Shown: one piece after another, positions 21,110-22,448 of the stretch
Numbering within the stretch: the stretch's first letter is position 1
Layout: each line of letters begins with the position of its first letter
Source: an uncultured Bacteroidota bacterium
GTDB lineage: Bacteria; Bacteroidota; Bacteroidia; Bacteroidales; P3
Direction of reading: 5' to 3'
Assembly (NCBI GenBank): GCA_902776365.1
Contig: CACYPU010000013.1
Span: 1 to 41,667 of the forward strand
DNA: 41,667 nucleotides
Program-made: the position numbers and the translations under genes
Notes under the pieces: generated by a model
What the model saw: the letters and a program-made list of their open reading frames with translations, nothing else
The model's database searches: none
What the model was told of the DNA's origin: nothing

Positions 21110-21140
21110 ATTTTGCGGTCAAAAATTTCGACCGCAAAAT
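21110..21140. promoter_or_regulatory. 31-nt palindrome upstream of the ORF6N pair (candidate operator)
   Basis: Two 15-nt arms around a central A at 21125 match at 14 of 15 positions; the left arm is ATTTTGCGGTCAAAA. The inner 27 nt match, at 25 positions, a palindrome found inside the following gene (21364-21390). It lies 20 bp before the ATG. There is no T-run, so a terminator is unlikely. Confidence 0.7.
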
Positions 21141-21160: not shown

Positions 21161-21730
21161 ATGGATAATTTAAAAGAACTGATACCATACAATGAGGTAG
21201 AAAACAAGATTGCCATCATTCGCAAACAAGATGTCATCGCCGATGCGGATGTCGCGGAGTTGTATGGCGTAGAGACCAAGGAGGTAAATCAGGCAGTGAG
21301 AAACAATCCCGACAAGTTCCCCGATGATTACATGTTTGAACTCACAAAGAGAGAGTTAGGTACTTTGCGGTCAAAAATTTTGACCACAAATGTGTCAAAT
21401 AAAAGTAGATCAGCGACTAAGGTCTTCACGGAAAAGGGACTCTATATGCTGGCAACAATATTGAAGAGTGAGAAAGCAACAGCCGCAACGTTTGCCATCA
21501 TCGAGACCTTTGCCAAGGTGCGGGAGTTGAAGCGGGAGTTGGTAGAGTTGCACAAGGAGACCGACAAAACGATGCAGGAGAAAAAGATGCAGCATTTCGG
21601 CGAAGTATTGACCGACATAGTGATGCCCGACCTCGAGACCTCCGAGACGGAATCATCATTGGAGACAAACTTTATCATTGGCAAAATCAAGCACACCGTC
21701 AAACGAGTAAAGAAAGACAATAAGAAATGA
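21161..21730 (+). CDS. ORF6N-domain protein 1
   Basis: 189 residues. The ORF6N domain (a predicted DNA-binding domain, often in phage and mobile-element proteins) spans about 10-110: NKIAIIRKQDVIADADVAEL, YGVETKEVNQAVRNNPDKFP, DYMFELTKRELGTLRSKI, VFTEKGLYMLATILKSEKA. The C-terminal part is helical and charged (RELKRELVELHKETDK), then a Lys-rich tail. The codons for GTLRSKILTTN carry a 27-nt near-perfect palindrome. The stop overlaps a 14-codon reading frame by the four bases ATGA. It sits between trmD and a second ORF6N gene, interrupting what is otherwise housekeeping DNA. Confidence 0.88.
   Translation: MDNLKELIPYNEVENKIAIIRKQDVIADADVAELYGVETKEVNQAVRNNPDKFPDDYMFELTKRELGTLRSKILTTNVSNKSRSATKVFTEKGLYMLATILKSEKATAATFAIIETFAKVRELKRELVELHKETDKTMQEKKMQHFGEVLTDIVMPDLETSETESSLETNFIIGKIKHTVKRVKKDNKK
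21364..21390. promoter_or_regulatory. 27-nt palindrome inside ORF6N gene 1
   Basis: Two 13-nt arms around a central A at 21377 match at 12 of 13 positions; the left arm is TTTGCGGTCAAAA. The same half-site occurs in the upstream palindrome at 21110-21140. Confidence 0.75.
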
Positions 21731-21771
21731 CTGTGCTGGAAGAAATGGGGAATAGAAAACTGCTGAAATAA
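21727..21771 (+). CDS. Possible coupled small peptide (14 aa) after ORF6N gene 1
   Basis: The ATG overlaps the ORF6N stop (ATGA) and reads MTVLEEMGNRKLLK then TAA. A closely similar frame follows ORF6N gene 2 in the same overlap (22375). Conservation of both overlap and sequence is the only evidence that it is translated. Confidence 0.4.
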   Translation: MTVLEEMGNRKLLK

Positions 21772-21781
21772 AAACATTGAA

Positions 21782-22378
21782 ATGGATGAAGGAATAATCA
21801 TAAAAGCTAACACAGACATTGAAGTCATCAAGCACCGCATCTACGAGGTGCGTGGTTTGCGTGTTATGCTTGACCGTGATTTGGCGGAGTTGTATAATGT
21901 AGAAACTCGTGCTCTGAATCAGGCGGTGAGACGTAATATCGACAGATTCCCCGAGGATTTTATGTTTGTGATGACCGAGGATGAGATGAATGCTTGGAAA
22001 TCACAAATTGTGATGTCCAATTCAATCCGTATGGGTATGCGCCGTCCTCCTGTTGTATTTACTGAACTTGGTATTGCTATGCTGAGTTCGGTGCTGCGGT
22101 CGGAGACGGCCATACAGGTCAACATCAATATTATGCGGGCGTTTGTGGCCATTCGTCACGCAATGGGTGCCTGGCAGGGAGTCAACTTGAAGGTGGAACA
22201 ACTGTCGCACAAAGTCGACAACCTCAACGCCCGTGTGGACGAGATTCTCCACGAACAGAATGAGAACAATATGGAGATGGCCGTGCAGATAAACGCCCTC
22301 AACGACGCCCTCGACCAACTGCGCGAGAAACCATCAACTCCCCGGAAACGGATAGGGTTTAAACAAGAGAACAAATGA
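21782..22378 (+). CDS. ORF6N-domain protein 2
   Basis: 198 residues. The ORF6N domain at about 15-115 shows IKHRIYEVRGLRVMLDRDLA, ELYNVETRALNQAVRRNIDR, FPEDFMFVMTEDEMNAWKSQ and PPVVFTELGIAMLSSVLRSE. A coiled-coil-like helix follows (VEQLSHKVDNLNARVDEILH), ending in a basic tail. It is clearly diverged from protein 1 but aligned along the whole domain. The codons at KSQIVMS carry a 27-nt near-perfect palindrome at the same domain position as in gene 1. The stop overlaps a 23-codon frame (ATGA). It starts 51 nt after ORF6N gene 1 and ends 70 nt before clpP. Confidence 0.9.
   Translation: MDEGIIIKANTDIEVIKHRIYEVRGLRVMLDRDLAELYNVETRALNQAVRRNIDRFPEDFMFVMTEDEMNAWKSQIVMSNSIRMGMRRPPVVFTELGIAMLSSVLRSETAIQVNINIMRAFVAIRHAMGAWQGVNLKVEQLSHKVDNLNARVDEILHEQNENNMEMAVQINALNDALDQLREKPSTPRKRIGFKQENK
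21994..22020. promoter_or_regulatory. 27-nt palindrome inside ORF6N gene 2
   Basis: Two 13-nt arms around a central A at 22007 match at 12 of 13 positions; the left arm is TTGGAAATCACAA. The sequence differs from the gene 1 palindrome although the encoded protein position is the same. Confidence 0.75.
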
Positions 22379-22446
22379 CCGTGCTGGAAGAAGTGGAAAA
22401 TAAGAAACTATTTAAGAAATTACAGCAAACAAAAAAACAATCATAG
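22375..22446 (+). CDS. Possible coupled small peptide (23 aa) after ORF6N gene 2
   Basis: The ATG overlaps the ORF6N stop as ATGA and reads MTVLEEVENKKLFKKLQQ, then TKKQS and TAG, two bases before the clpP ATG. The first 12 residues match the peptide after ORF6N gene 1 at nine positions. Confidence 0.4.
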   Translation: MTVLEEVENKKLFKKLQQTKKQS

Positions 22447-22448
22447 AT

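Follow-up and report, generated by a model that had tools for sequence, protein, structure and literature searches.

The question raised by this locus is why two diverged neighbouring genes should each carry a long DNA palindrome at the same codon position, in the midst of the sequence that encodes a protein domain. Within the window (the whole 41,667-nucleotide stretch analysed here, from contig CACYPU010000013.1 of assembly GCA_902776365.1, an uncultured Bacteroidota bacterium), gene 1 (21161–21730, plus strand, 189 residues) and gene 2 (21782–22378, plus strand, 198 residues) stand in tandem, flanked by a tRNA (guanine-1)-methyltransferase gene (trmD) and a Clp protease gene. Both products belong to the ORF6N family (PF10543), scoring 106.5 bits (E = 8.7e-31) and 110.4 bits (E = 5.2e-32), respectively, against a curated cut-off of 27.8 bits. 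The palindromes, first described in a first-pass annotation and confirmed here, are TTTGCGGTCAAAAATTTTGACCACAAA in gene 1 (21364–21390) and TTGGAAATCACAAATTGTGATGTCCAA in gene 2 (21994–22020); each has a central A and arms that are complementary at 12 of 13 positions, and the two occupy a homologous codon position in two diverged ORF6N genes. An upstream copy of the gene 1 palindrome, TTTGCGGTCAAAAATTTCGACCGCAAA (21112–21138, 25 of 27 positions identical), lies between trmD and gene 1 and starts 49 bp before the ATG, and when the assembly (2.23 Mb, 89.65% complete) was scanned for the arms of the gene 1 site (TGCGGTC-N9-GACCGCA, at most one mismatch) only this copy and the gene 1 site itself were recovered. 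The ends of both ORF6N genes are overlapped through an ATGA by small ORFs starting MTVLEE (21729–21773 and 22376–22447); ATGA overlaps were seen at 33 among 207 genes, and MTV starts are confined to close relatives.

The in-gene palindrome recurs throughout the family. One scan for relatives of gene 1 returned 80 sequences, making 81 rows with the window gene; the searched motif was present in 77 of them, all scoring 10–13 complementary positions out of 13, and the first-pass motif found no match in the other four (L015, L019, L054 and L067). Pooling family searches, pattern loci, plasmid and phage loci and extra regions yielded 213 unique genes with both anchor columns, from sources that include Bacteroidales, Fibrobacter, Treponema, Kiritimatiellae, Fusobacteriota, Campylobacterota, Legionella and Butyrivibrio, many of them metagenome assemblies. 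The best palindrome in the segment scored at least 8/13 in all 213 genes and at least 9 in 211 (13/13 in 48, 12 in 83, 11 in 48, 10 in 24, 9 in eight and 8 in two); 26 of the genes come from loci picked by the palindrome pattern and were thus selected for having one, and the distribution is similar in the other 187 (38, 72, 45, 22, 8 and 2 genes for scores from 13 down to 8). ORF6N genes were found on plasmids and phages as well, with several per genome (up to nine).

Synonymous-codon resampling, which the first-pass annotation had named as the test that could overturn its proposal, argues instead that this symmetry is maintained at the DNA level, as the annotation had suggested. Across 176 genes with a full segment (four of them from palindrome-pattern loci; 300 resamplings), the observed palindromes averaged 11.56/13, whereas the resampled segments averaged 5.49 at the corresponding place and 7.79 when their best palindrome at any place was taken; against this latter measure, 119 genes beat all 300 resamplings and 166 reached p ≤ 0.05, with ten above. 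Paired substitutions across the arms, the other signature proposed at the outset, are frequent: in 128 distinct sites 1462 of the 1664 pair cells are Watson–Crick, many complementary cells having been kept through changes on both sides, and the pair 4 bp from the centre, for instance, is G-C in 55 sites, A-T in 50 and C-G in 15. At 13 bp from the centre 101/128 sites are still symmetric, at 14 bp only 53/128, and the weakest pairs within the arms lie at 9 bp (85/128) and 1 bp (98/128). Of 203 genes scoring at least 10, 181 have the centre on the first codon position and the remaining 22 on the second, and these second-frame genes have a similar DNA word at nearly the same place in the domain, with a very different peptide (LVANCDRF vs LRSQIATS).

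ORF6N genes mostly hold a single palindrome. A second one lies 30–42 nt away in the same gene at L062, L072, L082, L086, L103 and L132, apparently through duplication of the site inside the loop. The exact 17-mer GGTCRCAAWTTGYGACC is present in 22 of 119 genomes of the window's class, a control pattern read backwards in none, and its occurrences in the loci examined fall within ORF6N genes in 17 of 25 cases, near them in five and away from them in three. At one weak ORF6N match (L341, G480:C294:31583-31884) the same 17-bp core occurs three times with a spacing of 142–143 bp, and several truncated ORF6N copies (L117, L118, L119 and the second copy at L114) stop in, at or just past the palindrome. 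The window's genome also holds a solitary palindrome, TCTAAGGTCACAAATTGTGACCTCAAA (11/13; G000:C9:113186-113212, loci L172 and L337), outside larger ORFs and with no ORF6N gene within 1.5 kb, which is possibly a target in trans or a relic. A motif scan of viral contigs was left out of the evidence; among the matches listed, 114 of 120 places were outside ORF6N and on reading resembled either hairpins of the terminator kind or in-gene matches due to chance. Single proteins used as queries against viral sequences gave no matches.

What, then, does the palindrome respond to? An AlphaFold2 model of gene 1 (moderate confidence, mean pLDDT 73) places two helices, residues 28–35 and 39–48, as a helix-turn-helix in its confident part, the second being the predicted recognition helix (codons 39–48, 21275–21304, plus strand), a prediction in which the model and the co-variation with the palindrome agree. 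Strands 58–60 and 87–89 enclose a low-confidence loop in which a wing is poorly resolved, and the protein is taken to be of the helix-turn-helix type, probably winged; Foldseek against the PDB returned nothing at E ≤ 0.001 and a sequence search for a relative of solved structure gave none that was convincing. When protein columns were scanned against the palindrome core, the leading helix columns were residues 44 and 48 of gene 1 (Q44, 21290–21292; N48, 21302–21304; plus strand), residue 44 tracking the base pair 4 bp from the dyad and residue 48 the one at 3 bp. By protein alignment the corresponding stretch of gene 2 comprises codons 42–51 (21905–21934, plus strand), with Q47 (21920–21922) and R51 (21932–21934), likewise on the plus strand, in the two reader positions.

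The correspondence can be written as a simple code. Among the 213 genes, E44 occurs with G in 99 of 99, Q44 with A in 70 of 75 (of the rest, two have G and three a one-sided base) and R or K at 44 with C in 19 of 29, a weak rule; N48 occurs with A in 88 of 90 and R48 with C in 114 of 115. The counts hold once the 26 pattern-locus genes are removed (E44-G 85/85, Q44-A 62/67, R/K44-C 18/28, N48-A 85/87, R48-C 92/93), and genes with D41 show G, A or a one-sided base. The window genes follow the code, with core AA in gene 1 as predicted from Q44 and N48 and core AC in gene 2 as predicted from Q47 and R51, and so does ORF6 of Lactococcus phage bIL285, a member of the same family, where the palindrome in the gene scores 11/13 and the core is CA, in accordance with its K and N. 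The claim of the first-pass annotation that the symmetry rather than the word has been kept therefore stands for the symmetry and fails for the word, which is itself constrained because it follows the reader residues.

Beyond the two core pairs, the scan (99 neighbour pairs, about 100–125 protein columns per DNA position) returned N48 as the top column for 3 bp (1e-7), Q44 for 4 bp (2.7e-17) and 5 bp, and K40 for 7 bp. Outer-arm positions were led by R83 (9, 10, 12 and 13 bp) and S82 (11 bp), within a group of loop residues encoded by codons 79–83 (21395–21409, plus strand) that co-vary with the arms 9–13 bp from the dyad and may form a wing; these residues sit just a few codons from the palindrome. 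At 1, 6 and 8 bp the leading columns, E65, A118 and E126, give weak signals (p no better than about 1e-3) and lie outside helix and loop, and the 2-bp position barely varies. Helix and loop residues thus co-vary with the palindrome position by position, and of the functions proposed by the first-pass annotation it is self-recognition by the ORF6N protein that these correlations strongly support.

Is the association more than shared ancestry? On a tree built from 131 columns, with the helix and the palindrome-coded stretch left out, tree-disjoint pairs differing in residue-44 class (symmetric sites only) had both bases as predicted in 47 of 52 cases and the same base in three, a comparison in which the independence of the pairs is weakened, since no more than about 100 bp separates helix and palindrome and conversion that passed both on together could inflate the association; only four such pairs differ at residue 48, three of them as predicted. 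Among pairs with different residues at position 44, the six closest have flanks that are 82–86% identical: four of them (L020/L023, L008/L005, L007/L001 and L009/L006) differ in only two symmetric bases, plus one end base in L020/L023, and in the other two (the L160 paralogues and L134/L126) a larger part of the word differs. The Q-A/E-G switch is seen with either N48 or R48 present and in either frame.

Silent positions provide a further line of evidence. In frame 0 the third position of one codon (codon 71 in gene 1) supplies the left base 4 bp from the dyad, and with both gene sets pooled (score at least 10 in frame 0, at least 9 in the other frame) this base is G in 104 of 104 E44 genes (TCG 94, ACG 10) and A in 106 of 108 Q44 genes (TCA 106, TCG 1, TTG 1). 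In the other frame it is the right-hand base that is silent, with TGC or TTC in 14 of 14 E44 genes and TGT or TTT in eight of eight Q44 genes. Because these silent bases follow residue 44, co-evolution between parts of the protein cannot be the cause.

With the rule fixed beforehand, we applied the code to 104 new genes (72 genomic and 32 viral, none from pattern loci, all relatives of the first set), after dropping 22 rows without both anchor columns, ten genes already in the first set and two duplicates. The palindrome scored at least 10 in 96 of the 104, and both bases were right in 87. Restricting the comparison to the 97 genes with coded residues and a score of at least 9, the 4-bp base was right in 88 and the 3-bp base in 96 (61/66 and 66/66 for genomic genes, 27/31 and 30/31 for viral ones). 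The 17 failures mostly have R or K at residue 44, several together with D41, or a weak in-gene site.

The sequences themselves thus show a constraint at the DNA level, how far it reaches and the residue–base code, and from these we consider it very likely that the ORF6N protein binds the palindrome within its own gene. That the in-gene palindrome is the DNA site of the protein from the same gene, a self-encoded operator, is the explanation that we regard as likely. On this explanation an ORF6N dimer, whose formation on the site we infer, would bind the 27-bp dyad, helix residues 40/41, 44 and 48 reading the base pairs 3–7 bp from the dyad and loop residues 79–83 corresponding to the outer 9–13 bp. 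The site starts about 60–75 nt downstream of the reader codons, in a stretch coding for a tolerant loop past the helix, so that reader and address would move as a single block. The bound protein would then block transcription running through the gene that encodes it, and about 20% of genes have a further palindrome before their start codon; such autogenous repression is the simplest purpose, and given binding we rate it as somewhat better than an even bet. Should the code be correct, exchanging Q44 for E in gene 1 would shift the preference from the A core to the G core, that is, from TCAAAAATTTTGA to TCGAAAATTTCGA.

The upstream sites were defined as palindromes scoring at least 9 and matching some ORF6N word at 20 or more of 27 positions. 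They occur in 59 of 294 upstream regions, with none such in 235, and 64 of their 118 half-sites fit the gene's own code, as compared with 27.1 (sd 5.7) in shuffles, none of 10,000 of which reached 64. Both halves fit in 27 of the 59; of the 54 half-sites that are off their own code some may serve paralogues, the upstream site at L108 being the neighbour's in-gene site, and the one at L064 looks like chance. All eight genes in the upstream list whose in-gene site is off code (L105, L154, L207, L384, L412, L421, L428 and L472) have an upstream site with its two halves on code. The window's upstream site is a hybrid, AA in its left half and GA in its right, as are those of six of the seven closest relatives that have one (L005–L011). 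In 38 of 209 genes a 110-bp stretch with its start 310 bp ahead of the in-gene site held a palindrome scoring at least 10, versus 28 of 1050 mono-shuffles; the comparison stretches gave 20/205 (the preceding 150 bp) and 4/212 (the following 110 bp). A copy of the gene's own word (at least 20/27) was found elsewhere between −900 and +1200 in 36 of 167 genes versus 82 of 835 trials with foreign words, sites of paralogues being counted, and over 171 upstream regions there was no mean own-word effect (mean rank 0.53), because most lack a copy; the comparison restricted to the 59 regions with a palindrome is thus the more telling one. Helical phasing between upstream and in-gene sites was not significant (n = 23, p about 0.18), and looping in helical phase was rejected on this basis.

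For repression of this kind a parallel is purR, an autoregulator with an operator in its coding sequence and with both upstream and intragenic sites. The ORF6N genes resemble it in having upstream and intragenic sites of what would be one regulator; unlike purR, a single case, they carry the in-gene site as a feature of the family's reader domain. A search of the open literature for an intragenic operator together with autoregulation gave no match.

A second, separate family, Bro-N (PF02498), shows the same in-gene palindrome design and the same co-variation between helix and site. In 70 unique genes (from loci L504–L614, with 20 gapped rows and five duplicates left out) the palindromes averaged 10.9/13, versus resampled means of 6.7 at the corresponding place and 7.7 for any place, and in 65 of them no more than five of 100 resamplings reached the observed score. 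In 34 pairs drawn from the 68 genes scoring at least 9, one helix position, mostly Arg or Lys, tracks the 3-bp pair (R-C 46/47, K-A 17/20; p 5e-5) and a second tracks the 5-bp pair (3e-6). A single Bro-N match is present in the window's genome, and its palindrome scores 12/13 (L519, G000:C1:404988-405287). By comparison, nine KilA-N genes (14 places listed, five partial ones left out) had best palindromes distributed as in one shuffle each, and a search for Phage_pRha gave 11 weak places, gene 1 itself among them, none above the cut-off. The gene at L528, whose protein reads SQQQIAEIFGTQRPAITKHIKNIF and which we take to be RhuM-like, holds a 10/13 palindrome and perhaps represents a third family with an in-gene site. 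Among the genomic contexts, the ORF6N gene overlaps the following ORF at L040, L044, L045, L047 and L058, an ORF that presumably resembles HsdS; on a Treponema plasmid (L155) ORF6N lies between a DNA methyltransferase plus helix-turn-helix gene and a restriction subunit S gene. The longer ORF6N proteins (L153–L156, L162) have in common a C-terminal region, marked by an HDRFLIID-like motif, which we assume to resemble a phospholipase D-type domain.

Several other explanations have to be weighed against a self-encoded operator. The one that survives best, which we judge unlikely but worth retaining, is that the arrangement is selfish, a resident protein recognising, silencing or recombining incoming copies of its own gene. 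It would account for an in-gene site in nearly all genes, for a reader and an address that are inseparable, and for the many paralogues and broken copies, some of the truncated ones ending at the palindrome; against it, linked paralogues show no avoidance of shared cores (4 of 24 pairs share them, versus 4.9 expected), the correlation of distance matrices does not drop across the palindrome (0.53, within the 0.36–0.63 of other neighbouring segments), and neither window protein belongs to a nuclease family (Pfam, E ≤ 0.001). The recombination or homing site envisaged in the first-pass annotation found no support in the same correlation, even with a few truncated copies ending there. A recombination hotspot at the palindrome was accordingly rejected, as was a homing endonuclease gene, given the lack of a Pfam nuclease family and a site that is intact inside the gene.

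Considerably less probable is that the palindrome is a replication-origin or partition site and the protein an initiator-like factor. Precedents for genes containing the site of their own product are known, as reported for RepC of repABC (PMC2783167) and for lambda O (PMC5043065, PMC4488673), and the presence of ORF6N genes on plasmids and phages would suit such a role; their multiplicity within single genomes, and the rule of one dyad per gene, an adjacent second being confined to the six genes named above, speak against it. An ORF6N gene would resemble those two replicon initiators in holding its product's site and would differ from them in that the dyad is short, lies inside the code for the DNA-binding domain, is family-wide and comes without a known origin.

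The association might also have arisen by descent, with a few helix-plus-palindrome haplotypes spread by recombination and no direct reading of the DNA. The proximity of helix codons and palindrome gives this account its plausibility; we nevertheless think it improbable, since the Q-A/E-G switch crosses residue-48 backgrounds and frames, four of the six closest residue-44-differing pairs keep their outer arms (save the one end base), and the base preferences agree with the classical side-chain pairings (Gln-A, Asn-A, Arg/Lys-G, Glu-C). Finally, an RNA hairpin controlling translation or decay of the message, which the first-pass annotation had listed and whose arms could pair in the transcript and survive paired changes, can be set aside as very improbable, because its predicted excess of G-U over A-C mismatches is absent (G-T 34, A-C 61, other 107; 28 and 32 for the first two without the fifth pair), which points to a DNA dyad, and because the word tracks a helix residue beyond pairing, as an RNA stem would not need.

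Recognition of the in-gene palindrome by the product of the same gene thus remains the preferred reading, and it would place ORF6N beside other families for which codes have been derived from co-variation, such as LacI (PMC2978694), GntR (PMC4494728) and MerR (PMC5045206), at least in the accessible parts of those reports. As in these codes, the amino acid–base correlations of ORF6N run through the family; the LacI, GntR and MerR sites lie at regulated genes, whereas nearly every ORF6N gene carries its own. In the accessible part of the open literature on ORF6N, with subscription papers and preprints outside the scope, we found no DNA target, in-gene site or code.

Phages, plasmids and many bacterial genomes contain ORF6N and Bro-N domains, and at least ORF6N, a little-studied DNA-binding family of phage type, is hardly mentioned in the open literature searched (five of 5.39 million papers). 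If the genes of these families contain the targets of their own products, sequence alone would reveal which DNA many uncharacterised proteins recognise, and a recognition code could be derived and tested without prior binding data. It would also mean a new rule, in which an amino acid about 25 codons distant fixes a silent coding base because it reads that very base. More tentatively, and at odds we would put at somewhat below even, ORF6N and Bro-N may be self-addressed genes, in which helix and word, no more than about 100 bp apart and co-evolving under a simple code, let a mobile gene carry its address and a resident protein recognise all copies of its own kind. If true, self-addressing would be a general principle of self/non-self recognition among phage-derived regulators, and these genes would constitute a natural library of protein–DNA pairs.
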